Virus record (IMG/VR): IMGVR_UViG_3300042291_001586
Coordinates: 1-31,248 of that record
DNA: 31,248 nucleotides
Reading direction: 5' to 3' (one strand)
Source of the DNA: a virus
Numbering within the stretch: position 1 is the first letter of the stretch; every line of letters begins with the position of its first letter. Below are positions 1,805 through 19,842 of the stretch, in pieces. The notes beneath the pieces were generated by a model. The model searched no databases, was not told where the DNA came from, and worked only from the letters and a program-made list of their open reading frames with translations. The position numbers were made by a program, and so were the translations under genes.

Positions 1805-2175
1805 TTCCCAGCATGGCTGGTTTTATGTCTTCAACAGTTTCAGCAGTACCAAATATTGTTGGACTTACAAGGACGAATGCCAATCTATCAATAACAAACC
1901 GAAGGCTTGTTGTAGGGACTCAAACATCAACATCAACATCAAATTCAGCTATTGATCAACAAGTAATTAGTCAAAGTCCTGTTTCAGGGACTGGAGTAGC
2001 CATAGGATCATCAGTTAACTATAATTATTATCAATATGTTGCTCCACCACCACCCCCACCAGAAGCTGTCACCTGTAGGGTAAACTATAATGACCCTGTT
2101 TATGGTCCACAATGCGGCTGCTCTAACGGAAGCTTCTGCTACCCTGGATCATGTGCTGGAGAAGTTTGTGGATAA
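1801..2175 (+). CDS. Virion-associated protein with a PASTA domain and Cys-rich tail
   Basis: A 124-residue protein. I chose ATG 1801 (ATGA overlap with the upstream stop) over an upstream in-frame TTG at 1774. Residues about 16-77 read as one PASTA domain: VPNIVGLT at the start, RRLVVGTQT in the middle, then QQVISQSPVSGTGVAIGSSV. A run of six prolines (82-87) follows, and then a 37-residue end with six cysteines (92, 105, 107, 113, 118, 123) that could form three disulfides. PASTA domains are known from bacterial Ser/Thr kinases and penicillin-binding proteins, where they contact peptidoglycan. In a tail-gene context, binding the cell wall during attachment is a reasonable inference. Confidence 0.7.
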   Translation: MIPSMAGFMSSTVSAVPNIVGLTRTNANLSITNRRLVVGTQTSTSTSNSAIDQQVISQSPVSGTGVAIGSSVNYNYYQYVAPPPPPPEAVTCRVNYNDPVYGPQCGCSNGSFCYPGSCAGEVCG

Positions 2176-2230
2176 GCAGTTAAGTTTTTATTTTTACAAT
2201 CCCGAAAATACACTTGTTCTGTCACACTAA

Positions 2231-2238
2231 TGTATAAT
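2231..2238 (+). promoter_or_regulatory. Probable promoter, TATAAT -10
   Basis: TGTATAAT lies 22 bases before the ATG at 2260. The upstream in-frame ATG at 2230 overlaps this -10 and so cannot be used on a message made from it. No matching -35 is visible. Confidence 0.5.
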
Positions 2239-2259
2239 ATTTTTTTAGAAAGGAAAAAA

Positions 2260-2802
2260 ATGAAAGACTATACAATTAAAGAATTAGATATATTTGATAA
2301 AGTTGCTTACGTCTATATTGATGATTACTTAGTCGGATTTTATCCATATAAAGAAAAACACCCATATTGGGCAGTTTTTGATCAAATAAAAAATGGATGT
2401 GTGCCAATTCATATAAAACAATATGACAAAATTCCGTCAATAGGAATGAAATATGAAGGTAACGTTTTTTTAAATGGTGAAAATGGAGAAACCTTCATGA
2501 ATATCGAAACCGCAATCCCAAATGGTCCACTAATAGAAGGTTCTAATGAAGCAATTATTACCGTGTCAGAACTAAATAAAGTAAATGGATGCTTAATTGT
2601 TTTTATGAAATATAAAAATTGGGTAAACGAAAACTACGCAGCACTTTTCGCAGCACTAATGAGCAACCCCAGAATAGTGATAGAAGATAACGTTGACAAT
2701 GAGTTTGATCACCTGAACGACCCTCAATTAATTGGGACATCAAAGAAAATACCAGAGTTTTCCGATTTTGAAAACTTTTATTCACAATGGGAGGGAAAGT
2801 GA
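2260..2802 (+). CDS. Hypothetical protein
   Basis: A 180-residue acidic, AT-rich gene. ATG 2260 is preferred over ATG 2230 because the latter overlaps the -10 box, and GAAAGGA lies just before 2260. I do not recognise the family. The protein starts MKDYTIKELDIFDKVAYVYIDDYLVGFYPY and contains an alternating strand/turn pattern plus a probable amphipathic helix (YAALFAALMSNPRIVIED). There are no transmembrane segments or signal peptide. It overlaps the following gene by four bases (GTGA), so the two are probably co-translated. The strongly AT-rich composition is shared with the next two genes and differs from the fibre genes. Confidence 0.6.
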   Translation: MKDYTIKELDIFDKVAYVYIDDYLVGFYPYKEKHPYWAVFDQIKNGCVPIHIKQYDKIPSIGMKYEGNVFLNGENGETFMNIETAIPNGPLIEGSNEAIITVSELNKVNGCLIVFMKYKNWVNENYAALFAALMSNPRIVIEDNVDNEFDHLNDPQLIGTSKKIPEFSDFENFYSQWEGK

Positions 2803-3062
2803 AAGAAAGCAATAAAAATAATTGGGAAACATATTTAGAAGAAAAAAAACAAAGAGAAGATAGGCTAGAAAAAGTATCTATATTTGATATGCTAGATAAA
2901 GATAAATATTCAAAAAATAAAGAAGAGGTGGATAGAAGAGTATCTATCTGTGAGGGGTGTGACCATTTTATAAAAATTACAAAGCAATGCTCAAAGTGTG
3001 GATGTTTTATGAAATTAAAAACAAAGTTAACAGACGCTTCTTGCCCAATTGGAAAATGGTAA
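2799..3062 (+). CDS. Small zinc-ribbon protein of a common phage family (DUF6171-like)
   Basis: An 87-residue protein. The start is taken as GTG 2799, which overlaps the upstream TGA (GTGA) and has GGGAGG 5 bases upstream. An in-frame ATG at 2787 lies inside that Shine-Dalgarno region and is less likely. The N-terminal half is charged and helical (YLEEKKQREDRLEKV). The C-terminal half has the pattern ICEGCDHF...TKQCSKCGCFMKLKT...SCPIGKW, with two CxxC pairs plus further cysteines, as expected for a zinc ribbon. The same C-terminal signature recurs in many aquatic phages as a short protein of unknown function, sometimes near hydroxylases, as here. Confidence 0.7.
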   Translation: MKESNKNNWETYLEEKKQREDRLEKVSIFDMLDKDKYSKNKEEVDRRVSICEGCDHFIKITKQCSKCGCFMKLKTKLTDASCPIGKW

Positions 3063-3064
3063 CT

Positions 3065-3074
3065 ATGCTAAAAT
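3065..3074 (+). promoter_or_regulatory. Possible promoter ATGCTAAAAT
   Basis: Two differences from the ATGATATAAT motif and retains TGnTAnAAT. It is 57 bases before the oxygenase start, further than in the other cases, so this is a weak call. Confidence 0.3.
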
Positions 3075-3130
3075 ATTTTCAACATCTTGATACACTAAAT
3101 TTTACAAAAAATATACAGGAAAAATAAAAA

Positions 3131-3724
3131 ATGAAAAGTTTAGTACCATCAGGTCACTTTGGAAATTCATCGGACAATATATATCATGTTAAAAATTTTG
3201 TTAAAAAAAACCATATCAACTTAATATATGAATATTCAAAAAATATAAAATCTTTTAATGGACCTCAAGATAGTGATATTTGGAAAGACAGAGTATGCTA
3301 TGGCAATCAAATTGAAAAAGAAAACAAAGAAGTTTTTGATATAACAAATTTATATTTAAAAAAATCAAAAATATTTATTGAAAATGCTTTTTCATTATCA
3401 TTAAAACCAGCGTATTCTTCAATAGTTGTATGGAATGTAGGGGATAACCAACCTCCACATGCAGATAAAGAAAATCCAGACGGTTCATGCAATGGAACAC
3501 CTTTTTATGACATATCATCATTAATATATATTAACGACAATTTTGATGGCGGATCAATATATTTTCCAAATCAAAATTTAGAAATTCAACCTTCTCCAGG
3601 GGATTTTGTGTGTTTTCCAGGGGACAAGGAATATGTGCATGGGGTAAAAGAAATTACTAATGGAAAAAGATTTACAATTCCTATGTTTTTTACTGTGGAA
3701 AATAAAAAAAATAATTCATATTGA
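3131..3724 (+). CDS. 2OG-Fe(II) oxygenase (prolyl 4-hydroxylase-like)
   Basis: A 197-residue protein fitting the double-stranded beta-helix oxygenase family that uses 2-oxoglutarate, O2 and Fe(II). The metal triad is visible as H110-x-D112 (NQPPHADKEN) and H170 (KEYVHGV). R180 (GKRFTIPMFF) is at the expected 2-oxoglutarate carboxylate position. FDGGSIYFPNQN and PSPGDFVCFPG are the usual strand-turn blocks between the ligands. AGGA lies about 10 bases before the ATG. Phages of aquatic bacteria often carry such enzymes; substrates are mostly unknown. Proline-rich virion proteins nearby (six prolines in the PASTA gene) are possible substrates, but that is speculation. Confidence 0.85.
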   Translation: MKSLVPSGHFGNSSDNIYHVKNFVKKNHINLIYEYSKNIKSFNGPQDSDIWKDRVCYGNQIEKENKEVFDITNLYLKKSKIFIENAFSLSLKPAYSSIVVWNVGDNQPPHADKENPDGSCNGTPFYDISSLIYINDNFDGGSIYFPNQNLEIQPSPGDFVCFPGDKEYVHGVKEITNGKRFTIPMFFTVENKKNNSY

Positions 3725-3730
3725 GATAAT

Positions 3731-3740
3731 ATGATAAAAT
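3731..3740 (+). promoter_or_regulatory. Extended -10 promoter ATGATAAAAT (leaderless type)
   Basis: One change from ATGATATAAT. The last base is 3740 and the gene starts with ATG at 3747, so the transcript should begin at the start codon. No Shine-Dalgarno site is present. Confidence 0.7.
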
Positions 3741-3746
3741 TTATTA

Positions 3747-4055
3747 ATGTTACCAATAGACCCTAATCCATCATGGAAGATGAGAAGAAGAGCAGTTTTT
3801 TCATCCCTGGTTTTTGGAATGGGTATCGTAATCTATACTGCTATTAGATGGGATTCTACATCTCTTGCAGAAACCCTGGCTCTTGGAGGATTTGGTATGA
3901 TAGGTGCTGTTGTAGCCGCGTATATTGGTGGGGCAGCGTATGAAGATGTAAAACTTAGAACTACCCCAGAATATCAAAGCCAACTTTATAGAAACGAAAA
4001 TGAACAGATAGATGATATAATAAACGACGAAGAAGGGAATCAAAATGTTCACTAA
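3747..4055 (+). CDS. Small membrane protein, holin-like
   Basis: A 102-residue protein with a basic N-terminus (KMRRR, about residues 11-15) and two hydrophobic spans, roughly 17-34 (VFSSLVFGMGIVIYTAI) and 44-62 (LALGGFGMIGAVVAAYIG). A long acidic hydrophilic C-terminus (ENEQIDDIINDEEGN) follows. Two membrane spans and a charged tail next to a recognisable holin gene suggest a second holin, antiholin or other lysis partner. Its start is apparently leaderless. Its 3' end contains an ATGATATAAT promoter and overlaps the following holin gene by 11 bases. Confidence 0.6.
   Translation: MLPIDPNPSWKMRRRAVFSSLVFGMGIVIYTAIRWDSTSLAETLALGGFGMIGAVVAAYIGGAAYEDVKLRTTPEYQSQLYRNENEQIDDIINDEEGNQNVH
4012..4021 (+). 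promoter_or_regulatory. Internal extended -10 promoter ATGATATAAT for the holin gene
   Basis: An exact copy of the 10-mer lying inside the coding sequence of the upstream membrane protein (its Asp-Asp-Ile-Ile codons). It is 24 bases before the holin ATG, with AAGGGA in between. Confidence 0.6.
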
Positions 4056-4266
4056 GAAATTTTGGATTGAGGCATCTGAAAGAGCACTCAAGACTTTTGC
4101 ACAATTTATTTTAGTTCTAGGAGCTGCAGGAACACTTAATGTTTTTTCTGTAGATTGGAAGACTAATATTGGACTAGCACTTGGGGGAGCCCTGCTATCC
4201 TATGCTACATCACTTGTATCTGCAAACATAGGACCAGAAAAGGGATCACCAAGTCTAGTAGAGTAA
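4045..4266 (+). CDS. Holin, r1t-like family
   Basis: A 73-residue protein that aligns by eye with the r1t-type holins common in actinobacteriophages. The N-terminal amphipathic helix is FWIEASERALKTFAQF. A first membrane span covers about residues 17-33 (FAQFILVLGAAGTLNVF), then a VDWKTNIG turn, then a second span at about 43-60 (LGLALGGALLSYATSLVSA), and a short Gly/Pro/Ser tail. Holins collect in the inner membrane and open it at a set time so that the lysin acts. Here the likely lysin is 16 kb away on the other strand. AAGGGA precedes the ATG and a strong terminator follows the stop. Confidence 0.8.
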   Translation: MFTKKFWIEASERALKTFAQFILVLGAAGTLNVFSVDWKTNIGLALGGALLSYATSLVSANIGPEKGSPSLVE

Positions 4267-4284
4267 ACAATGACTACATAAAGG

Positions 4285-4314
4285 GCAGGGTAGAGAAATC
4301 TATCCTGCTTTTTT
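4285..4314 (+). terminator. Rho-independent terminator after the holin
   Basis: A 10-bp stem GCAGGGTAGA / TCTATCCTGC (one G-T wobble) closes a GAAA loop and is followed by TTTTTT. It ends the holin transcript just before the next promoter. Confidence 0.9.
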
Positions 4315-4325
4315 GTATTTAAAAA

Positions 4326-4335
4326 ATGATATAAT
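4326..4335 (+). promoter_or_regulatory. Extended -10 promoter ATGATATAAT
   Basis: Exact 10-mer 12 bases after the terminator T-run and 18 bases before ATG 4353. GAGGTG lies between as the Shine-Dalgarno site. Confidence 0.75.
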
Positions 4336-4352
4336 GAATGAGGTGAATATTA

Positions 4353-5999
4353 ATGGCTGCTACTACAAATAATTATGGGTTTCCATACCCCGAAGATACT
4401 GATACCGTAGATGTTGCTGGGGATATTCAGTCTCTTGCTGAAGACATAGACACAAAACTTTCTGAGGCAATCGCAGACACCGTTGGTACAATGGTTACTA
4501 GCAACACAGAAAGCGGAATTACCGTAACCTATGACGATGCCGACAATACTTTAGATTTTGATGTTGCAGATTTTACTCTTACCTTTTTAGGTGATGTTTC
4601 TGGAAGTGCAAGCATTACCAACCTTGCGAGTGCAAGTGCGACCATTACAATCGCACCCAACAGCGTTGCCCTAGGAACTGATACCACTGGAGAATACGTT
4701 GCTACCGCAACAGCAGGGTCTGGCATTGAAGTTTCAGGCTCAGGTTCTGAGACCGCAGCATTAACGATTACCAATACAGGCGTAACCAGTCTAGCTGGAA
4801 CTGCTGATGAAGTAACAGTTTCTGCTTCAGCAGGGGCAGTAACCCTAAGCCTTCCAGCAACCATTAATGCCAATACTACTGGTACTGCAGCAGCCCTTAC
4901 TACAGCCCGTACTATTGAACTAACGGGGGATGTAACAGGAACCGTATCCTTTGATGGTAGTTCTAGCGCATCTTTGGCAACTACCATTGCAGCCAACAGC
5001 GTTGCCCTTGGAACTGATACCACTGGAAACTACGTTGCTACAGTCGCGGGTACTAATAATGAAATTGAAGTATCTGGATCTGGTTCTGAATCAGCAACAA
5101 TAACAATTGGATTACCAGACAATGTAACTATTGGCAATGATCTTACTGTTACTGGAAATTTAATTGTAAGTGGATCAACTGCCTATATTAATACTACAGA
5201 ACTTTTAATAGAAGACAATTTGGTTACATTAAACTCTGGAACAACTGGATCTCCTTCTTTAAACGCTGGTATTGAAATAGAAAGAGGAACATCTCCTAAT
5301 ACCGATATAAGATGGAATGAATCAACAGATGTTTGGGAATTTACAAACGACGGTACAAATTATTATACAATTAAAGATTTTGATACTGCCCTTGCTACAA
5401 AAACAACAGATAATCTTACTCAAGGTTCAACAAATTTATATTTCACAGATGAAAGAGCACAAGATGCAATTTCTACTGCAATAGCAGCTGGAACTCAAAC
5501 AAATATAACAGTTTCATATAATGATTCAACAAACTCTTTTAGTTTTATTTCTGTTGATCCAGGGGTCACTAGCCTACTTGGAACTGCTGATGAGGTAACT
5601 GTTTCTGCCTCAGCAGGAGCAGTAACTCTAAGCCTTCCAGCAACGATCAATGCCAACACCACTGGTACTGCAGCCGCCCTTACAACAGCTCGCACCATTG
5701 CTTTAACGGGAGATGTAACGGGCAGCGTATCCTTTGATGGCAGCGCAAGTGCGTCCATGGTAACGACAGTTGTTGGTGGTGGTGGTGGCGGCGGAACAAT
5801 TGTTTACCAGGATGCTGTTCCAACGGCAGGTATTGAAACTGGAACCTTGTGGGTAGATAAAAATGGTGAATCAAACCTACTTAATGGAAATGATTTTTAC
5901 ACAAAAACACAAATAGACACAAATACTTATACAAAAACACAAGTCGATGGACTTCTTTCAGGAGCAGGGTTTAATCCATTTCTTCTTATGGGTGCATGA
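4353..5999 (+). CDS. Tail fibre protein with internal repeats
   Basis: A 548-residue protein starting AATTNNYGFPYPEDTDTVDVAGDIQSLAEDID, a typical phage fibre or baseplate attachment N-terminus. The shaft contains repeated segments: NSVALGTDTTG twice, and a longer block (GTADEVTVSASAGAVTLSLP... to ...SFDGS) at residues about 149-203 and 410-464. Between them is a block (TVTGNLIVSGSTAYINTTELLIEDNLVTLNSGTTGSP) of a type widespread in fibres of aquatic phages. After a seven-glycine hinge (VVGGGGGGGTIVYQ) the end carries TLWVDKNGESN and two KTQ(I/V)D heptad-like units, likely a trimer-forming region. GAGGTG precedes the ATG. Confidence 0.85.
   Translation: MAATTNNYGFPYPEDTDTVDVAGDIQSLAEDIDTKLSEAIADTVGTMVTSNTESGITVTYDDADNTLDFDVADFTLTFLGDVSGSASITNLASASATITIAPNSVALGTDTTGEYVATATAGSGIEVSGSGSETAALTITNTGVTSLAGTADEVTVSASAGAVTLSLPATINANTTGTAAALTTARTIELTGDVTGTVSFDGSSSASLATTIAANSVALGTDTTGNYVATVAGTNNEIEVSGSGSESATITIGLPDNVTIGNDLTVTGNLIVSGSTAYINTTELLIEDNLVTLNSGTTGSPSLNAGIEIERGTSPNTDIRWNESTDVWEFTNDGTNYYTIKDFDTALATKTTDNLTQGSTNLYFTDERAQDAISTAIAAGTQTNITVSYNDSTNSFSFISVDPGVTSLLGTADEVTVSASAGAVTLSLPATINANTTGTAAALTTARTIALTGDVTGSVSFDGSASASMVTTVVGGGGGGGTIVYQDAVPTAGIETGTLWVDKNGESNLLNGNDFYTKTQIDTNTYTKTQVDGLLSGAGFNPFLLMGA
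4797..4960 (+). repeat. Direct repeat copy 1 inside the fibre gene
   Basis: A 164-base segment beginning GGAACTGCTGATGA that recurs 783 bases downstream with scattered, mostly synonymous changes and no length change. The spacing is a multiple of three, so both copies are read in the same frame. Confidence 0.85.
5580..5743 (+). repeat. Direct repeat copy 2 inside the fibre gene
   Basis: The second copy of the in-frame repeat at 4797-4960. The differences are mostly third-position changes, pointing to an old duplication kept by selection on the protein. Confidence 0.85.
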
Positions 6000-6005
6000 T
6001 ATAAT
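5996..6005 (+). promoter_or_regulatory. Extended -10 promoter ATGATATAAT
   Basis: Exact 10-mer overlapping the stop codon of the upstream fibre gene and 16 bases before ATG 6021. GAGGAT lies in between. Confidence 0.75.
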
Positions 6006-6020
6006 TAAGACGAGGATAAT

Positions 6021-6572
6021 ATGACAGTAATAAGCACAATAGCCAAACCAGCCTATGTTTATGATGCTACGGCTGACACATGGTTTCCAGTCGGGGCTCA
6101 AGCGGTTGCTTTTGTTACCACATATGTTTATACCGCCACGGCTGCCCAAACGGTTTTTTCTGGGGTAGATGATAATTCCCAAACACTTTCTTATATAACA
6201 GACGCAATAAAAGTATTCTTAAACGGAGCACTTCTTACTCCATATACTGATTATTCTGCATCAAATGGAACATCGGTAACACTTGCATCAGGCGCGTCAG
6301 TTAATGATATTTTAGTTATTATTGCATCTGATAACTTTCAGATAGCAGATACTTATACAATTGCTCAAGCTGATACTGCAATTGCCGCCGCAGCAGACGC
6401 TGTTGGGGCCCAGGGTGGGGGCAGCGATCAAATCTTTTACGAGAACGGTCAAACGGTCACGACAAACTATTCCATCAGCGCATCAAAAAACGCGGTGACG
6501 GCAGGCCCAGTCACAATCAACACCGGGATTACGGTCACGGTTCCTTCAGGTTCAACATGGGTGGTGGTCTAA
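6021..6572 (+). CDS. Tail fibre / adhesin protein (mosaic)
   Basis: A 183-residue protein. The first part carries a well-known fibre domain, TVFSG.DDNSQTLSY....VFLNGALLTPYTDYSASNGTSVTLASGASVNDILVIIA (about residues 43-111). The end is another common module: YENGQTVTTNYSIS, then TVPSGSTWVVV at the C-terminus. The base composition changes sharply near 6380-6420, from AT-rich to GC-rich, exactly at the Ala-rich linker between the two modules. The gene therefore looks assembled from two sources. It has its own promoter and is followed without a gap by the next fibre gene (TAA then ATG). Confidence 0.75.
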   Translation: MTVISTIAKPAYVYDATADTWFPVGAQAVAFVTTYVYTATAAQTVFSGVDDNSQTLSYITDAIKVFLNGALLTPYTDYSASNGTSVTLASGASVNDILVIIASDNFQIADTYTIAQADTAIAAAADAVGAQGGGSDQIFYENGQTVTTNYSISASKNAVTAGPVTINTGITVTVPSGSTWVVV

Positions 6573-7124
6573 ATGACGATACGGCTAAACGGTTCGACAA
6601 GTGGCTACGTTGAAATAGACGCCCCCGCTGTTGCGGGTGCTGGAGTGTTGACGTTGCCGACAGGAACGGGGACATTGCTGAGGGCTGAAGGTGGGAAGGT
6701 GTTGCAGGTTGTTGAAGGAGTTTTTGACTCAAACACCAGTTTGACTACAACAACTTCAACAGATATTGGTTTATCTGCTTCAATCACTCCCAGTTTAGCA
6801 ACAAGCAAAGTTCTTGTTGTGGCTCATCTTTCTGGTGTTGCCAGAATTGGTACGTTGACTCCTGCAAACACACAACTAGAAATAAAAGTTTTGCGAGGTG
6901 CTACAACAATATATACGTCAGCCTTGCTAATGGAAATGCTTCCATCATCAGGTGGGGGGGCAGGTTATGTCAGTGTTCCCGGTCCAACAATTGTTCAACT
7001 TGATTCTCCGTCAACAACAAGTTCTACAACATACAAGTTGCAAGCGCGTAATGCTGCGTCTGCAACAGATGGGTTAAGAATACTCTTTCCCATGCGTATA
7101 TATCTGATTGAGGTGTCAGCATGA
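6573..7124 (+). CDS. Tail fibre / receptor-binding protein
   Basis: A 183-residue protein beginning TIRLNGSTSGYVEIDAPAVAGAGVLTLPTGTGTLL, a fibre N-terminal motif known from many phages. A beta-rich C-terminal domain follows (residues about 60-183: TSLTTTTSTDIGLSASITPSLATSKVLVVAHLSG). The start directly abuts the upstream stop with only a GGTGG stretch before it, so translation is probably coupled. Its stop overlaps the next start (ATGA). The first 150 bases are GC-rich and the remainder less so, again suggesting modular exchange. A host-recognition role is inferred from family and position. Confidence 0.75.
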   Translation: MTIRLNGSTSGYVEIDAPAVAGAGVLTLPTGTGTLLRAEGGKVLQVVEGVFDSNTSLTTTTSTDIGLSASITPSLATSKVLVVAHLSGVARIGTLTPANTQLEIKVLRGATTIYTSALLMEMLPSSGGGAGYVSVPGPTIVQLDSPSTTSSTTYKLQARNAASATDGLRILFPMRIYLIEVSA

Positions 7125-7387
7125 TAGAAAAAGAAATTGCGATTGCCAGCCTTCGACAAGACACAGAGTGGGTTATGTACGGCGACGATGTTGAGGGCAT
7201 CATCTGGCACACGCCAGACGTTGAACCTTTAACTACCGCTGAAGTTGAAGCGGAAATCCTACGCCTTGAGCAGGATGCCATTGATGCCGATGCAGCGAAG
7301 GTTGCTGCGCGTGAATCGGCGATGGTGAAACTGGCTGCACTTGGTTTGAACGTGTCCGAAGTTGAAGCGATTGTTGGGGGTGTGTAA
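7121..7387 (+). CDS. Small fibre-associated protein (possible fibre chaperone)
   Basis: An 88-residue acidic protein coupled to the upstream fibre gene by ATGA and to the downstream one by TAATG. It reads IASLRQDTEWVMYGDDVEGIIWHTPDVEPLTTAEVEAEI and then a long helix ending AMVKLAALGLNVSEVEAIVGG. Small proteins with a TP..PLT..E segment followed by a helix ending in ALGL...E typically accompany phage fibre genes, and some act as fibre assembly factors. I see no firm link to one Pfam family. The gene at 8744 has the same arrangement. Composition is GC-rich compared with the rest of the window. Confidence 0.55.
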   Translation: MIEKEIAIASLRQDTEWVMYGDDVEGIIWHTPDVEPLTTAEVEAEILRLEQDAIDADAAKVAARESAMVKLAALGLNVSEVEAIVGGV

Positions 7388-8007
7388 TGGCTGTAACTAT
7401 TAACGGGAACGGTGTTGTTACTGGTCTTGATTCTGAGGGCAGTTCGGATCTTGGTACGGAACTTGAGGCTGCTGGTGGGTTGGTGATGGTTACACCGACA
7501 ACGATTGCGAACAGTGGCGGGACGGCAACGCTGACCGCTGGCGCTGTTGCGTTTAGTGGAGTGACAAGCCTTAGTTTAAATGGCGTATTCACAACTACTT
7601 ACGACAATTACAGAATAATGTGGGACGCAACTTGTAGCACAAATAATAACGTAAATGCAAGAATGAGAGTAGGTGGAGTTGATGAAACTGGATCTAATTA
7701 TGTTAATCAATATTTACTTGCATCAGCAACAACCGTTGCAGCAAATAGGGCAACTACGACATCATTTCCGTTTGGTGATCTTACTACTACAATTAGAGCA
7801 GCGGCCCAAATTGAAATATTTTCGCCAAGAATTGCACAACCCACTAACTTTTTAGTTACCGGCCAGTATTCAAGTGCAAGTGCGGCCCTTATTTTTTACG
7901 CCGGCACTCACTCTTTATCAACGGCTTACGACGGATTTACCATTTCGCCTAATACAGGTACTTGGACTGGGACACTCCGCGTTTACGGCTACAGGAACGG
8001 AATCTGA
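7387..8007 (+). CDS. Receptor-binding tail protein, paralogue A
   Basis: A 206-residue protein whose start overlaps the upstream stop (TAATG). The N-terminal third is AVTINGNGVVTGLD... then VTPTTIANSGGTATLTAGAVAFSGVTSLSLNGVFTTTYDNYRI, a domain found at the tips of many phage fibres. The middle is variable, and the end is GTHSLSTAYDGFTISPNTGTWTGTLRVYGYRNG. Start, hinge and C-terminal pattern recur in the next gene, so the pair is a tandem duplication with diverged centres. GC-rich for the first 180 bases and AT-richer after. Confidence 0.75.
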   Translation: MAVTINGNGVVTGLDSEGSSDLGTELEAAGGLVMVTPTTIANSGGTATLTAGAVAFSGVTSLSLNGVFTTTYDNYRIMWDATCSTNNNVNARMRVGGVDETGSNYVNQYLLASATTVAANRATTTSFPFGDLTTTIRAAAQIEIFSPRIAQPTNFLVTGQYSSASAALIFYAGTHSLSTAYDGFTISPNTGTWTGTLRVYGYRNGI

Positions 8008-8654
8008 TGTCAACAATAAAAACAACTAACATTCAACATCCTTCCGCTGTTGATCCAGCGATTGTTCTTGACGCTGACGGTGACGCTGTTTATGCGGGTG
8101 TACATGATTTCACTGCCGCAACGGTGACGGGTGCGGGTGGGTTGCGTCTAGTAACCCCAACGAGTATTGCTAACAGTGGTGGTAGTGCAAGTGCTAGTGG
8201 TGGTGCGGTGACTTATAGCGGAGTGACTAGCGTCAGCCTCAACGGGGTATTTAGCGCCACATATCAAAATTATACAGTCGTATTTTCTATCGTTTTAGCT
8301 GGTGGGGCTGACGTTTTTTTCCGCTGGCGAGCAGCTGGCACCGATGCAAGTGCAAGCAATTATGTGCAACAATTTAGCCGAGCATTGAACACGACTTTTT
8401 TAGGTGGTTTAAAAACGTCTACTTCAGTTGATACCACAGTAACAGGTGGAACTAACAGCGTTTATCAAGGAACTGTTTTTGCACCATTTGAAACAAATCC
8501 AACATCACATTTTTATTTGTGTGGATCTGAAGCCGGTGTTGCAAATTTAACGGGCCGTCATAGTTTGTCAACGTCTTACGATGGCTTAACTTTTTTCACT
8601 GCATCGGGAACTTTTAGCGGCACCATCCGCGTTTACGGCAATCAAAACAGTTAG
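8007..8654 (+). CDS. Receptor-binding tail protein, paralogue B
   Basis: A 215-residue protein. The start is ATG 8007, overlapping the upstream stop (TGATG); the longer in-frame ATG at 7962 lies well inside the previous gene and is unlikely. It shares with paralogue A the block LVTPTSIANSGGSASASGGAVTYSGVTSVSLNGVFSATYQNYTV (about residues 45-90) and the ending RHSLSTSYDGLTFFTASGTFSGTIRVYGNQ. The central part (about 95-175) differs. The N-terminus (STIKTTNIQHPSAVDPAIVLDADGDAVY) is a fibre attachment motif seen across phages. Likely binds the host surface. Confidence 0.75.
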   Translation: MSTIKTTNIQHPSAVDPAIVLDADGDAVYAGVHDFTAATVTGAGGLRLVTPTSIANSGGSASASGGAVTYSGVTSVSLNGVFSATYQNYTVVFSIVLAGGADVFFRWRAAGTDASASNYVQQFSRALNTTFLGGLKTSTSVDTTVTGGTNSVYQGTVFAPFETNPTSHFYLCGSEAGVANLTGRHSLSTSYDGLTFFTASGTFSGTIRVYGNQNS

Positions 8655-8662
8655 GAAAAACA

Positions 8663-8740
8663 ATGGCTGACGTTATTAAAACAGATTTAACAACTGACCC
8701 ACCCATCATAATAGATATAAAAAATAAAGAAAGGAAATAA
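8663..8740 (+). CDS. 25-residue micro-ORF, truncated copy of the next gene's N-terminus
   Basis: A short frame with TAGGA upstream of its ATG. Its product, beginning MADVIKTDLTTDPPII, matches the start of the next protein, MADITETDYTTDPPTI, at 10 of 16 positions, and then diverges into a Lys-rich end and stops. It looks like the stub of a duplicated or replaced fibre-associated gene. Whether it is translated usefully is unknown. The intact relative begins three bases after its stop. Confidence 0.45.
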   Translation: MADVIKTDLTTDPPIIIDIKNKERK

Positions 8741-8743
8741 AAA

Positions 8744-8983
8744 ATGGCAGATATAACAGAAACAGACTATACAACAGATCCACCAACAATAACGGAGCGT
8801 TCTTTTACTAAAAAAGAAAAAACCCAAATTGAAGAAGATCGTAAAACATTTGAGAAGCTTGAAGCAGATCGCATATCTAGTGAACAATCATTTAGACAGG
8901 CAAAGATAGATGCTATAGAACATGCAAAATCTTTGGGATTTACTGATTCTATGATTTCCGTCATGTATCCAAGCCTTGATTAA
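8744..8983 (+). CDS. Small fibre-associated helical protein
   Basis: A 79-residue charged protein. After a short N-terminal segment (MADITETDYTTDPPTI) it is nearly all helical: KKEKTQIEEDRKTFEKLEADRISSEQ, likely coiled coil, about residues 22-50. It ends AKIDAIEHAKSLGFTDSMISVMYP. The final helix-turn resembles the end of the gene at 7121 (AMVKLAALGLNVSEVEAIVG). This suggests a shared role as small partners of fibre proteins, possibly assembly factors. AAAGGA lies before the ATG. No catalytic or membrane feature is visible. Confidence 0.55.
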   Translation: MADITETDYTTDPPTITERSFTKKEKTQIEEDRKTFEKLEADRISSEQSFRQAKIDAIEHAKSLGFTDSMISVMYPSLD

Positions 8984-9025
8984 TATTTAATATTAAAATC
9001 CAGGGGATAAGAAATATTAAAAAAA

Positions 9026-9035
9026 ATGATATAAT
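9026..9035 (+). promoter_or_regulatory. Extended -10 promoter ATGATATAAT
   Basis: Exact 10-mer, 18 bases before ATG 9053, with AAGGAG in between. Confidence 0.75.
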
Positions 9036-9052
9036 CTATATAAGGAGTTAAT

Positions 9053-10189
9053 ATGACTAGGGCAAGAGATACAGCAGATATAGTTCAAGATGTAAGTGTT
9101 GAATTAGCATTAAAGGCTAATTATTCGCTACCCGTCAATACTAGATCAGGAACAACATATACTTTTGCTTTGGCTGATGATTCTCTGCTGACTGTTGCCA
9201 CTAGTGCCTCTGCTCAGACTTTTACCATCCCCCCACAATCTTCTGTTGCATGGACTGCTAACGATATTCTTCGGGTAGTCAATTATGGAGCAGGGGCTCT
9301 TACCATAGTTGGCGGCGCGGGGGTGACAGTCACAAACACCGCCTCAACTATTGCACAATATCAAAGTGCAGCAGTTATCCGTACTGCGGAGAATGCTTGG
9401 ACCTTGCTCCCTTTTTCGGGTGGGGTTTCTAGTGCTAATTTTAGCAATACTGCAACTGGAACTTATACTGGATACAAATATGTAACTTTTAATGCTTCTG
9501 GAACTTTAACTGTTACAAAAGCTGGAACGTGTGATCTCCTTGTTGTAGGGGCAGGTGGAGGCGGTGCAACTGGTAACACTGTTCGCGGTGCTGGAGGTGG
9601 AGCAGGACAGCATATGTATCTTACTAATTATTTTTTACCTATTGGGGATTACACAGTGACAATTCCAGGTGGTGGAGCGATTGGCACAAGAGGCACTGGA
9701 GCTTCTATTGGAGACATTCGTGTTGCTGGTGGTGGTGGTGCTAATGCAGGTGTTGGCGCGAGCGGTGCTGGAGGCAGAAGCGATGCAGGTGCTGGTGCTG
9801 GAAGTATTTTAATTAATGGATTTAGTGGTGGTTCTGGTGGAGGTCCAAACTATTACGGCGGTGGCGGTGGAGGGGGCTCTGCTGGAGCTGGCGGCAATAG
9901 TACTTATAATCCTCATGGCTATGGAGCCTATCAGGGCGGTGCTGGTGGTGCTGGAGGTGCTGGCACAGCAAATTCTATAACGGGAACTTCTGTTACCAGA
10001 GCTGGTGGCGGTGGCGGTGCCCATGCTGGTACGGGTACTGCTGGAGGAGCTAACGGTGGTGTCGTGAGTGGAACCGCTGGTGCTGCTACAGCTAATACTG
10101 GTAGCGGTGGTGGCGGTGGCGGAAATGGTTCACCAGGAACTGGATCTGCCGGTGCCTCTGGTGTTGTAATTATAAGAGTCGCTGTTTAA
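9053..10189 (+). CDS. Glycine-rich tail adhesin
   Basis: A 378-residue protein. The N-terminus MTRARDTADIVQDVSVELALKANYSLP is a frequent fibre attachment motif. A beta domain follows (about 32-125, similar to the end of the gene at 1193), and then NFSNTATGTYTGYKYVTFNASGTLTVTKAGTCDLLVVGAGGGG. From about residue 165 to 370 it is glycine-rich with many GGGGG runs, ending GASGVVIIRVAV. Such domains occur in phage adhesins; in phage S16 gp38 they form a polyglycine type II helix lattice that presents loops to the receptor. Promoter and AAGGAG precede the ATG. The stop overlaps the next short frame (TAATG). Confidence 0.85.
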   Translation: MTRARDTADIVQDVSVELALKANYSLPVNTRSGTTYTFALADDSLLTVATSASAQTFTIPPQSSVAWTANDILRVVNYGAGALTIVGGAGVTVTNTASTIAQYQSAAVIRTAENAWTLLPFSGGVSSANFSNTATGTYTGYKYVTFNASGTLTVTKAGTCDLLVVGAGGGGATGNTVRGAGGGAGQHMYLTNYFLPIGDYTVTIPGGGAIGTRGTGASIGDIRVAGGGGANAGVGASGAGGRSDAGAGAGSILINGFSGGSGGGPNYYGGGGGGGSAGAGGNSTYNPHGYGAYQGGAGGAGGAGTANSITGTSVTRAGGGGGAHAGTGTAGGANGGVVSGTAGAATANTGSGGGGGGNGSPGTGSAGASGVVIIRVAV

Positions 10190-10281
10190 TGATTATTTTG
10201 TTAGGTGGATTTCCTAGGTCTGGCTCCTCTTTGATATTAACATCTTGTTACAAAGCCAAAGAAAATAAAAAATCATATTAA
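10189..10281 (+). pseudogene. Truncated sulfotransferase N-terminus
   Basis: A 30-residue frame starting MIILLGGFPRSGSSLILTS, in which GFPRSGSSL matches the 5'-phosphosulfate-binding loop of PAPS-dependent sulfotransferases. It ends after a short Lys-rich stretch at a TAA, with no continuation of the enzyme in this frame. The start overlaps the stop of the glycine-rich adhesin (TAATG), exactly the position that an intact sulfotransferase gene takes after another glycine-rich adhesin at 12310. Best read as the remnant of a second sulfotransferase gene. Confidence 0.65.
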
Positions 10282-10388
10282 GAGTTAATAATAAATTAAT
10301 ATAAATATTAGCAATCATAATATTGCTAGTGTTTGTGCTGTTAGAATGATTGCTGTTGATAATTCGAATAAACTATAAAAGGAATAAA
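10282..10388 (+). other. Short intergenic scar with a hairpin
   Basis: An AT-rich gap between the sulfotransferase remnant and the next gene. It holds a 9-bp inverted repeat (ATTAGCAAT / ATTGCTAGT, loop CATAAT, 10307-10330) without a strong T-run. An in-frame stretch to a TAA at 10376-10378 reads like the tail of a protein (SVCAVRMIAVDNSNKL). A weak -10-like GATAAT lies at about 10357. I see no RNA gene. Confidence 0.35.
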
Positions 10389-11093
10389 ATGACTATAAAT
10401 GTTTACTGGGCTTGCTTAGAAGATGAGTGGGTAAGAGACACTGGACCAGAACCTGTATCCAGCCATTTTTATGGAAACAAAGATATCAATGAAAAAGATA
10501 ATAAGCACCTTTCTCTTAATAGGTGTCCATTTTTTAATAAAAATTTTAATAATTTGTATCAGCTTAGATCCATATATTCTTATTCATTTAAAATAAATGG
10601 AAGCTCAGTTTCTAGCGATATTTATGATCAAAGTTTTTTTGACAAACACGTTTACATAAGGTCAATAGAAAAAAGAGCATTTTCTTTTAGTCAAAACAGA
10701 ATATTCTATACTGATAATAAAAAGGGATTAGATATGACATCTTATGAAATGCCATACCTAGAAGAAAATAATATAACCAAAAGAACCATCCCAATTGTAG
10801 GAACATTTGATATTGGAAAGTGGTTTAGAAATATAGAGCATCCATTTTACATGAAAGATGGATATGATGAGTTTAAGATAGAAGAGGGGGAAATCATGTA
10901 TTATTTAAGATTTCATACTAATGAAAAAATTAAATTTATACAGTTCTATCCTAGTGAAAAAATAAAAGAAATCAGCGTATCAAACATGAAATCAGCAATC
11001 AACACCTCCTCTAAACATAGTGCAGATTTTTTTTATAATAATTTTAAAACCAAAAAAATAGTAGAAAAAGAAATAAAGAAGAATATTTTATAA
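10389..11093 (+). CDS. Hypothetical protein of a phage family
   Basis: A 234-residue, very AT-rich gene. ATG 10389 with AAAAGGA upstream is chosen over a TTG at 10350. It starts MTINVYWACLEDEWVRDTGPEPVSSHFYG, a beginning I associate with uncharacterised proteins in aquatic phages. It continues with NRCPFFNKNFNNLYQLRSIYSYSFKI, TIPIVGTFDIGKWFRNIEHPFYM and YYLRFHTNEKIKFIQFYPS. The aromatic-rich alternating pattern suggests a beta-rich soluble protein. There are no catalytic motifs, membrane spans or signal peptide. Its composition differs from the adhesin genes on both sides, suggesting separate acquisition. Confidence 0.6.
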   Translation: MTINVYWACLEDEWVRDTGPEPVSSHFYGNKDINEKDNKHLSLNRCPFFNKNFNNLYQLRSIYSYSFKINGSSVSSDIYDQSFFDKHVYIRSIEKRAFSFSQNRIFYTDNKKGLDMTSYEMPYLEENNITKRTIPIVGTFDIGKWFRNIEHPFYMKDGYDEFKIEEGEIMYYLRFHTNEKIKFIQFYPSEKIKEISVSNMKSAINTSSKHSADFFYNNFKTKKIVEKEIKKNIL

Positions 11094-11100
11094 GAAATTT

Positions 11101-11211
11101 ATGGCAAAGCATAGTGGACTTCATTTATCAGAACCATTTATGAGAAAAAGACACGCTACAGATAAAAAATATCTAGAAAATATTGGAATATGGGGTAGAG
11201 TTGGCTTATGA
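11101..11211 (+). CDS. 36-residue small ORF of unknown nature
   Basis: A short basic frame (MAKHSGLHLSEPFMRKRHATDKKYLEN...WGRVGL) that begins eight bases after the previous stop, with no good Shine-Dalgarno site. It could be translated by coupling, or be the remnant of a larger gene. Its end overlaps a 22-residue frame at 11208-11276 (ATGA) that runs into the next promoter. I do not recognise either product. Confidence 0.3.
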   Translation: MAKHSGLHLSEPFMRKRHATDKKYLENIGIWGRVGL

Positions 11212-11267
11212 TTAATTTATTCTTAACTCAGGAAGCTTTGATTAAAAAAATGAATTTTGCCTACTTT

Positions 11268-11277
11268 ATGATATAAT
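11268..11277 (+). promoter_or_regulatory. Extended -10 promoter ATGATATAAT
   Basis: Exact 10-mer, 17 bases before ATG 11294, with AAAGGAG in between. Confidence 0.75.
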
Positions 11278-11293
11278 TTATAAAGGAGAAAAA

Positions 11294-11626
11294 ATGGCAA
11301 CTAACTATAAATACTCACAAGTTCAAGGGACTGTAAGTACAGGAACCTATGCAACTTTATACACTACTCCCGCTGCTACACAAGCAGTTATCTCTTCGCT
11401 TGTTATTACTAATCAGTCTTCAAATGCTGTCACAGTACGAATTGGTATGGATACTACAGCAGGAACACCAGGAGCTTCAGAATTCCTTGTTTATGATGCT
11501 GCTATTGCTGGTAACGACATGGTTGCACTTACACTTGGTATTACTATGCCTTTCGAAAATTTTATTCGTGTAGCTTCTTCAGCAAGCACATGCAACTTTA
11601 CGGCATTCTTGTCGGAGATTTCTTAA
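11294..11626 (+). CDS. Small virion protein (tail or head decoration)
   Basis: A 110-residue, Ala/Thr/Ser-rich protein with a predicted beta-sandwich. It reads GTYATLYTTPAATQAVISSLVITNQSSNAVTVRIGM at about residues 17-52, then FLVYDAAIAGNDMVALTLGITM and FENFIRVASSASTCNFTAFLSEIS. The strand pattern and the LVITNQSSNAVTV motif resemble small structural proteins of phages that sit next to fibre genes. It has its own strong promoter and Shine-Dalgarno site, and is coupled by TAATG to the glycine-rich adhesin that follows. This may be an attachment partner of that adhesin. Confidence 0.6.
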   Translation: MATNYKYSQVQGTVSTGTYATLYTTPAATQAVISSLVITNQSSNAVTVRIGMDTTAGTPGASEFLVYDAAIAGNDMVALTLGITMPFENFIRVASSASTCNFTAFLSEIS

Positions 11627-12309
11627 TGGCAGTAAGTAGTTTTAAGAGAGCAGGTTTAGTAACTTTCCAAAACTCATACGCTGATTTTTCTAACACTGCA
11701 ACCGGAACTTACGTTGATACTAGCGGATTTGCGTGGAAATACATTCAGTTTAATTCGAGCGGAAGTCTTGTTGTTATTCGTCCGGGGATTGCTGATCTTC
11801 TAGTCATATCTGGCGGGGGAACTGCTTACACAAACAACTCACAAGATTCTGGCTATAACGCTGGCGGTGGTGCCGGTGGGTTGTTAAATCGTCCGTATAC
11901 TCTTGAAACAACAACTTATACGGTTACAGTGGGTGGGGCTGGCAGCAACAGTTCTTTTGGATCATTGGCAACGACAACGGCAGGAACAAACGGGGGCGTT
12001 AATTCTGGGGGAGATCAAGGATCAAATAATCAACCCGCCAATGGTTTTATAGGTTGGAAGGTCTACGCTCAATCAACTGGAGCAGGCGCTGGTGCAAACG
12101 GTGCATCAGGAACACCTGGCGTTGGTGTTGTTTCGTCTATTACTGGCACGGCAGTTACTTATGGAATTGGCGGTTCAAGAAATCAAAGCACTGGTTTTAC
12201 GCCCCCTACTGCTAATAGCGGCAACGGTGGTTCTTCTGCTTCTACTGGAACAGGTTTCGCTAATGCTGGTGCCAGCGGCGTAGTAATCGTTCGTGTGAGG
12301 ACAAACTAG
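11626..12309 (+). CDS. Glycine-rich tail adhesin (short)
   Basis: A 227-residue protein. The start ATG 11626 overlaps the upstream stop (TAATG); the in-frame ATG at 11590 lies inside the previous gene. It contains the shared block DFSNTATGTY....WKYIQFNSSGSLVVIRPGIADLLVISGGG (about 25-70), then a glycine-rich domain with AGGGAGGLLNRPYTLETTTYTVTVGG. It ends GASGVVIVRVRTN, the same ending as the other glycine-rich adhesins. The glycine runs are shorter than in its relatives. Followed immediately (zero-base gap) by the sulfotransferase gene. Confidence 0.8.
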   Translation: MAVSSFKRAGLVTFQNSYADFSNTATGTYVDTSGFAWKYIQFNSSGSLVVIRPGIADLLVISGGGTAYTNNSQDSGYNAGGGAGGLLNRPYTLETTTYTVTVGGAGSNSSFGSLATTTAGTNGGVNSGGDQGSNNQPANGFIGWKVYAQSTGAGAGANGASGTPGVGVVSSITGTAVTYGIGGSRNQSTGFTPPTANSGNGGSSASTGTGFANAGASGVVIVRVRTN

Positions 12310-12855
12310 ATGAAAGTTTTAGTTACTACTTCACCACGATCAGGAACACATTTTATGGTCAGGTCTTTAGGTTTATCCTTGGGAGTACCCGTAGCAGTAA
12401 AGCCTAATATAGACAAACTTCCAATCGAAGATCATTGGGTAGTAGGAACACACGTTACTGACATTCTTGATAATTGCCCCGAAGATGTTGTAAAGATTGG
12501 CGTTCACAGAGAAATGTTAGGTCATTTGTTGTCTTATTTTGATCATCCTGAAGATCCTAATTCCAATGATTTTATTGAAAAAGTAAGGCAGTCTGATTTT
12601 TTTGTTTTACGGAAAAAATTTTTAAATCTTGATATTAATTATTTTTCTTATGATAAAATAGCAAAAAAAGATGACGTAGAGATCAATAGATTGTCTGGAT
12701 TATTTGGTATGCCAATTAAATTTGAAAGCTATGCAAACATAACTAAAGCAATTAACTCAGTGATGTTTAGACACGGTGATCCTGACAGATGGAAAAAAGT
12801 TTTTAGTAAGAAAACACAAGATATTTTAGTTGCTATAAGTGAGGAAACCAAATGA
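12310..12855 (+). CDS. Sulfotransferase (PAPS-dependent)
   Basis: A 181-residue protein, short for the family (usually 250-300) but with its three landmarks. These are the 5'-phosphosulfate loop TTSPRSGTHFMV (residues 6-17), a 3'-phosphate-binding region with R67 and S75 (VHREMLGHLLSYFDHPED), and the C-terminal RHGDPDRWKKVFS (about 154-166), which matches the GDWKN-type PAPS-binding motif. It should transfer sulfate from PAPS to a hydroxyl or amine of a sugar, tyrosine or other acceptor. The gene is wedged between two glycine-rich adhesin genes with no gap upstream (TAG then ATG) and an ATGA overlap downstream, so it is made together with them. A virion or surface target is therefore plausible but unproven. 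Confidence 0.8.
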   Translation: MKVLVTTSPRSGTHFMVRSLGLSLGVPVAVKPNIDKLPIEDHWVVGTHVTDILDNCPEDVVKIGVHREMLGHLLSYFDHPEDPNSNDFIEKVRQSDFFVLRKKFLNLDINYFSYDKIAKKDDVEINRLSGLFGMPIKFESYANITKAINSVMFRHGDPDRWKKVFSKKTQDILVAISEETK

Positions 12856-18747: not shown

Positions 18748-19842
18748 ATGGATATTCATCCTACAGTTTGTTTCCTTACCTACGACTGGGCCTTTGGCAC
18801 AAAACCCTTGCAACCAAACGGTTGTGCTTGGTATCGCTGCTACTTGCCAATGAAAGAACTAGAAAAGAATGACTGGGATACTGCAATTGGATTCCCTGGG
18901 TGGAACAATGAACATGGTTTTGGTTTGTTAGTTCCAGACAAAAAAGCTATTCATGGTTGGGACATAATTGTTCTTAAATTGATAATGCTTGAGTCAGTTG
19001 CTTCTAAAATATTGGAAGCAAAAAAAATGGGGCAAAAGATAGTTGTAGACATTGACGATTGGTTTGAGGGTTTAGAAAAAACCAACATGGCTTACACTAC
19101 TACAGATCCTAAGAATAATCCTAACAATAATAGAGATCACTACATGTTTATTATTGAGAATGCAGATGCGATTATTACCTCTACCCCATTCCTTTATGAT
19201 TTTTATAAAAATGAAAAGGGTTTAAAAAATATATTTCTAGTTCGTAATGGTATTGACATAGATCGTTGGACTCCAAGAAAGGATCATTCTCGTGGTCTAC
19301 CACAACTAGGATGGGTAGGTGCTACTCCATGGAGATCAATGGATCTAGAAACATTGTCACCTTGGATTGGTCAATTTCTAGAAAGCAACCATCTATCCTT
19401 TCATCATTCTGGAAATGTTATTAATGCTCCTGTGGCTTCTAATCAACTTGGAATACCAAAATCAGTAAAAACAACAAAAGAGCCAATGAAGCCAATTCAC
19501 TATTACCCAGAACTTTTTAGAAAGATTGATATTGGCCTTGTTCCTCTTAACAATGTAAGATTCAATTATGCAAAGTCTGGAATCAAGGGCCTTGAGTATA
19601 GTGCTGCTGGTGTGCCATGGGTTGCCTCTTATAGCCCTGAGTACGCCATTTTAGAAGAGCAGGGTATTGGAAGAGTAGCAAACAATGAAAGAGAGTGGAT
19701 AGGCCACTTAGAAGAGCTTCTAGACCCAAAGGTTCGTAAAGAAGATGCTGAAAGAAATATTGAAAATATTAAGAAGTATCAGTCTATGGAAGTTCGCGGT
19801 AAAGACTGGAATGAAGTAATGCATCAAATCAGAGACCTATAG
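18748..19842 (+). CDS. Glycosyltransferase, GT-B fold (family 4-like)
   Basis: A 364-residue protein. The N-terminal acceptor-side domain has PNGCAWYRCYLPMKELEK (23-40) and VVDIDDWF (99-106), a pair seen in GT4-type enzymes. SGNVINAPVAS and the C-terminal donor domain follow: LGWVGATPWRSMDLETL (188-204) and FNYAKSGIKGLEYSAAGVPWVAS (272-294), where K276 and E283 are likely nucleotide-sugar contacts. It should transfer a sugar from an activated donor; the acceptor is not evident. Candidates are phage DNA, a virion protein or the host envelope. TTGGAG precedes the ATG. It is transcribed alone from its own promoter and closed by a terminator. Confidence 0.85.
   Translation: MDIHPTVCFLTYDWAFGTKPLQPNGCAWYRCYLPMKELEKNDWDTAIGFPGWNNEHGFGLLVPDKKAIHGWDIIVLKLIMLESVASKILEAKKMGQKIVVDIDDWFEGLEKTNMAYTTTDPKNNPNNNRDHYMFIIENADAIITSTPFLYDFYKNEKGLKNIFLVRNGIDIDRWTPRKDHSRGLPQLGWVGATPWRSMDLETLSPWIGQFLESNHLSFHHSGNVINAPVASNQLGIPKSVKTTKEPMKPIHYYPELFRKIDIGLVPLNNVRFNYAKSGIKGLEYSAAGVPWVASYSPEYAILEEQGIGRVANNEREWIGHLEELLDPKVRKEDAERNIENIKKYQSMEVRGKDWNEVMHQIRDL

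Follow-up and report, generated by a model that had tools for sequence, protein, structure and literature searches.

What is a frame of only 30 codons, opening with the phosphosulfate-binding loop of a sulfotransferase, doing directly behind the gene of a tail adhesin? The frame lies in a virus record of 31,248 bases, analysed as a whole and referred to here as the window (38.8% GC), which carries genes for a portal protein, a prohead protease and a ribonucleotide reductase and is thus that of a tailed phage. Several adhesin-like genes of the Pfam family Gly_rich_2 are found in its tail region, beginning at 9053, 11632 and 12852, with small accessory genes interspersed between them.

The short frame behind the adhesin gene

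The adhesin gene at 9053–10189 (plus strand, 378 aa; Gly_rich_2, E = 6.6e-09; phrog_2295) ends in a stop codon that overlaps the next ATG as TAATG, and the frame started there runs for 30 codons to a TAA (10189–10281, plus strand; product MIILLGGFPRSGSSLILTSCYKAKENKKSY). An earlier note on this DNA had described a 30-residue frame with the sulfotransferase loop in this overlap, and we confirm it: the N-terminus reads MIILLGGFPRSGSS. The start codon and the 5'-phosphosulfate-binding loop, together residues 1–16 of the stub (10189–10236), match sulfotransferases both by profile and by alignment. Against a profile of 21 N-termini of full-length sulfotransferases (14 from genomes and seven viral), the stub scored 28.1 bits (E = 4.5e-8), the top score among the 650 frames of the window; as all profile members were picked by patterns containing the P-loop motif, the E-values are biased towards the stub, and the score is to be read as agreement of the stub with sulfotransferases by sequence, not as an unbiased discovery. 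A profile of six viral sequences chosen without the MI start gave 22.6 bits (E = 2.2e-6). The second-best window frame by the 21-sequence profile was 12310–12855 (E = 1.5e-4), and among 19,994 frames from relatives the best score was only 10.0 bits.

The loop is also rare so close to a start codon. Placed at most 15 codons from an ATG, the pattern G.PR[ST]G[ST][ST] occurs once in the window, at 10189, and a looser form of it twice, at 10189 and 12310. Neither form was found near an ATG in related virus DNA (1,020,833 bases in 53 pieces, overlaps included, taken from 23 of the 36 related records) or in simulated first-order Markov sequence (9.37 Mb). In a genome collection the start-plus-loop pattern picked out 16 stretches, 14 of which open sulfotransferase frames of 185–319 aa, whereas the frames of the other two are short (67 and 30 aa); a strict scan of the same collection for a start plus GGFPRSGSS, a pattern that does fit the window, gave no match. 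Searches of the 30-mer against Pfam, NCBIfam and PHROGs returned no match, nor did tblastn of the stub against 50,697 phage records. A kinase Walker A loop was considered and ruled out: the stub is without the lysine and has S-S there instead. The kinase-type loop PRSGK, without S-S, is far commoner among the matches of the viral scans.

Sequence downstream of the loop

The resemblance stops at residue 16 in both profile and alignment. When the last 16 residues of the stub were compared with sulfotransferases, 497 of 2000 shuffles did as well or better, so that only about 16 residues are, by sequence, demonstrably sulfotransferase, and the rest of the frame (10237–10281, plus strand) is not demonstrably homologous. 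Inspection by eye revealed no continuation in the three frames to 10400 or in those of 11091–11300, and no downstream frame contains the 3'-phosphate-binding R-x7-S motif or the rest of the fold; with the fold absent, the stub is to be classed as a remnant and not as a family member. Full-length members of PF13469 (Sulfotransfer_3) and PF00685 share its start, its spacing and its loop G-x-P-R-S-G-[ST]-[ST], but unlike them the stub keeps approximately the first 16 residues only and has neither the 3'-phosphate site nor the enzyme domain. The suggestion of the earlier note that a second sulfotransferase had stood here and is now lost is well supported by the usual distance from motif to start, the S-S after the glycine, the lack of a continuing frame and the presence of a different gene in its place.

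The composition changes where the resemblance stops: GC content falls from 37.5% (10189–10236) to 20.0% (10237–10281) and stands at 27.2% over 10282–11229, a value as low as that being reached in only 2 of 606 stretches of equal length. The gene now occupying the place is an intact accessory gene of 234 aa (10389–11093, plus strand; phrog_17480; 27.4% GC), the product of which is 51% identical to that of a gene in two other contigs, L010 and L011. There the homologue belongs to an operon-like row that also holds a 2-oxoglutarate oxygenase gene and a tryptophan-halogenase-like gene (the halogenase was assigned by eye); tblastn of the accessory gene against the 50,697 phage records gave no match. 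Accessory genes for 2-oxoglutarate/Fe(II) oxygenases (PF13640) are present in the window itself (3131–3724) and in L010 (2333–3501); the former has an equally low GC content of 27.4%, and in L010 the two families adjoin.

The low-GC segment is bounded by an inverted repeat of 19 bases, the left arm (10282–10300) lying directly 3' of the stub's stop codon and the right arm (11211–11229) where a 36-codon frame ends. The arms are complementary at 18 of 19 positions, a match not equalled once when the flanks were dinucleotide-shuffled 2000 times, and no further copy was found across the window. The segment 10282–11229 therefore has the terminal inverted repeats of a cassette, but contains no transposase, the phrog_17480 gene being its sole sizeable gene. 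Simple insertion into a sulfotransferase gene is an insufficient account, as no 3' part follows beyond 10282–11229.

Exchange of tail modules and the origin of the stub

Swapping of tail-region accessory genes is ordinary for phages, and a second strain, G001, documents it for this virus. G001 matches the window at 95.7% identity over 1–1824, 99.6% over 3746–6385 and 98.7% over 8975–9352 and, judged by these identities, belongs to the same virus population or to one very close to it. Between the matching segments whole blocks differ: window 1825–3745 is replaced in G001 by two genes, one glycine-rich and one small, and 6386–8974 by another set of genes that includes a glycine-rich one. The left junctions lie inside genes, about 17 codons into the gene at 1774 and about 122 codons into the gene at 6021. 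The gene at 1774, which in the window encodes a PASTA-domain protein, shares approximately its first 17 codons with the glycine-rich gene of G001 and then diverges. The stub follows the same pattern – behind a conserved stop codon the opening codons persist and what follows is swapped – and we therefore read 10189–10281 as an exchange scar. The G001 contig ends inside the adhesin gene, at window position 9352, and the comparison stops before the slot of the stub. Terminal inverted repeats were sought at the other exchange junctions and none were found, which speaks against the inverted repeat as a general feature of the exchange.

We consider it probable that module exchange replaced a sulfotransferase gene in the slot behind the adhesin gene at 9053–10189 and that the stub is the scar of its 5' end. 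A full-length sulfotransferase gene would formerly have occupied this slot, translationally coupled to the adhesin gene immediately before it. Adhesin and accessory modules of the tail region are swapped en bloc between co-occurring viruses, and in one of these swaps, its left junction falling 16 to 30 codons into the sulfotransferase gene, the remainder would have been deleted and the low-GC accessory gene at 10389–11093 left in its stead. The 30-codon frame is probably without function today. In its en bloc character, its near-identical strains and its sharp junctions the case resembles the mosaic exchange of tail-adhesin modules in phages; unlike the usual exchange, one junction here has apparently left the start of the former gene readable. 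Because the related records examined yielded no full-length sulfotransferase behind a homologue of this adhesin – the check that the earlier note had proposed – we infer, rather than observe, the former full-length gene at the slot. Its loss by exchange and not by slow decay is likewise inferred. The stub would then be a small readable record of the loss of a sulfotransferase gene behind a tail adhesin.

Could the truncation instead have arisen in the assembly, the contig having joined sequence from two strains within a hypervariable tail region, somewhere between approximately 10236 and 10389, so that the cut gene exists in no single virus? This main rival reading is possible since contigs of near-identical viruses, from samples with neighbouring numbers, break in or near the region: G001 does so at 9352, inside the adhesin gene, and another contig (L012) ends inside the gene at 18748; near-identical strains, moreover, differ in their tail modules. 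With the accessory gene at 10389–11093 intact and the inverted repeat placed exactly at the stub's stop codon, we nevertheless regard a false join as unlikely. Decay in place, the erosion of a disused gene by point mutations and small deletions, would suit a frame that stops shortly after the loop in AT-rich sequence, but it would additionally require a large deletion, since the remaining codons have left no recognisable trace in the frames to 10400 or in 11091–11300. As nothing is left of the other approximately 150 codons, decay is less likely than exchange, and we consider it improbable; the statement of the earlier note that one copy had decayed holds for the loss of the gene and probably not for the manner of the loss, a cut by module exchange being the likelier one.

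Two readings would do without a lost gene. Accidental resemblance of a short frame to a sulfotransferase start might be argued from the shortness of the match (16 residues), from the failure of the family searches in Pfam, NCBIfam and PHROGs, and from the two short frames (67 and 30 aa) among the 16 matches in the genome collection; set against the complete lack of such starts in the simulated (9.37 Mb) and the related sequence (1.02 Mb), and against the position of the stub directly at an adhesin stop, like that of the intact window gene at 12310, chance becomes very improbable. That the stub is a functional small peptide, one that binds the phosphosulfate donor or acts in translational coupling, would fit the overlap of its start with the adhesin stop; neither the 50,697 phage records nor the related records yielded a conserved homologue of the 30-mer itself, and we give this reading hardly any credence.

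Sulfotransferase-like genes and adhesins in this and other phages

The intact gene at 12310–12855 (plus strand, 181 aa) begins directly at the stop of the adhesin gene 11632–12309. It has the loop SPRSGTHF near its start, an R-x7-S element (REMLGHLLS) and the sequence GDPDRWKKVF, the latter two of which we take to be typical sulfotransferase motifs, R-x7-S binding the 3'-phosphate. No Pfam or NCBIfam family matched it up to E = 10; its best match in the PDB is a sulfotransferase, with a non-significant E-value of 0.89. The structure prediction has a mean pLDDT of 33.5, and no reading is based on it. We regard the product as a putative sulfotransferase, which may have PAPS-dependent activity. 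No match was obtained by tblastn in the 50,697 phage records, and no relative was confirmed in viral contigs. The 36 related records, which stand behind 36 of 91 loci, likewise gave nothing when searched with 12310, and neither did the same set with the window added when searched with PF13469; these searches are insensitive, as PF13469 also misses 12310 itself.

The earlier note had further proposed that the pairing of adhesin and sulfotransferase arose at least twice, which would strengthen a functional link. To set this against other adhesins, we surveyed adhesin ends in 83 pieces of DNA (1.32 Mb, window included), in which 25 glycine-rich frames passed the filter, 23 of them outside the window; the window adhesin at 11632 falls below that filter. 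Among the 23 ends outside the window, eight are overlapped by the next frame, two have no next frame, and none has a sulfotransferase start directly behind it. With various kinds of genes directly following adhesins in the related records, and with modules moving en bloc, the case for a repeated pairing, and for a functional link drawn from it, is weak.

Scans of viral contigs yielded seven distinct sulfotransferase-like genes. The looser loop scan returned 62 stretches, mainly PRSGK-type kinases and similar P-loop frames, with a single sulfotransferase sequence of the S-S form, present in two contigs (L192 and L196); a TAATG-anchored scan returned 11, five of them sulfotransferase-like (L227, L229, L232, L235 and L236); and a codon-restricted scan returned 24, one of them sulfotransferase-like (L244). 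The remaining stretches of the last two scans are short or unrelated frames. The gene in L235 is flanked by likely structural genes and that in L229 lies upstream of a long tail-like gene (both judged by eye), the gene in L236 follows a DUF2793 gene, and another three have no tail genes visibly adjoining. L244, a contig more distant than the related records, has its gene near adhesins: over 6894–11199 it carries, in order, three Gly_rich_2 adhesin genes, a phrog_7759 gene (corresponding to window 14542), the sulfotransferase-like gene of 171 aa (10103–10618; loop GGFPRSGNHF, Pfam sulfotransferase match far under the cut-off) and a phrog_1276 gene (corresponding to window 11294). This gene and those of phrog_10855 in Pseudomonas phages, 171–180 aa long, have the same loop as the stub and, unlike it, are complete; in phages phiH1 and BL5 the phrog_10855 genes stand among replication genes, not tail genes. 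The L235 and L244 genes found no match by tblastn in the 50,697 phage records. In those parts of the open-licence literature on sulfotransferases of phages and viral contigs that we consulted, including PMC10580990, PMC8290583 and PMC9569957, a stub behind an adhesin is not described.

An association of adhesins with sulfotransferases is possible on this sequence evidence, L244 being one lead. A wider reading, which we think distinctly doubtful, would give the tail adhesin units of this virus group a standing slot for enzymes decorating either the adhesin or its receptor, with sulfation among the options; single-gene cassettes bounded by inverted repeats would replace each other there and leave the start codons of the prior tenant. 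If sulfotransferases do recur in the slot in other phages, the idea that tail adhesins or the receptor are sulfated could be put to the test.

A separate observation concerns the sequence ahead of tail and head genes. The sequence TGATATAAT occurs in nine exact copies in the window, seven of which are placed before gene starts, 15–26 bases upstream of successive tail and head genes (copies at 198, 1169, 4327, 5997, 9027, 11269 and 27291); the placement resembles that of a short promoter common to these genes, immediately 5' of the ribosome site.
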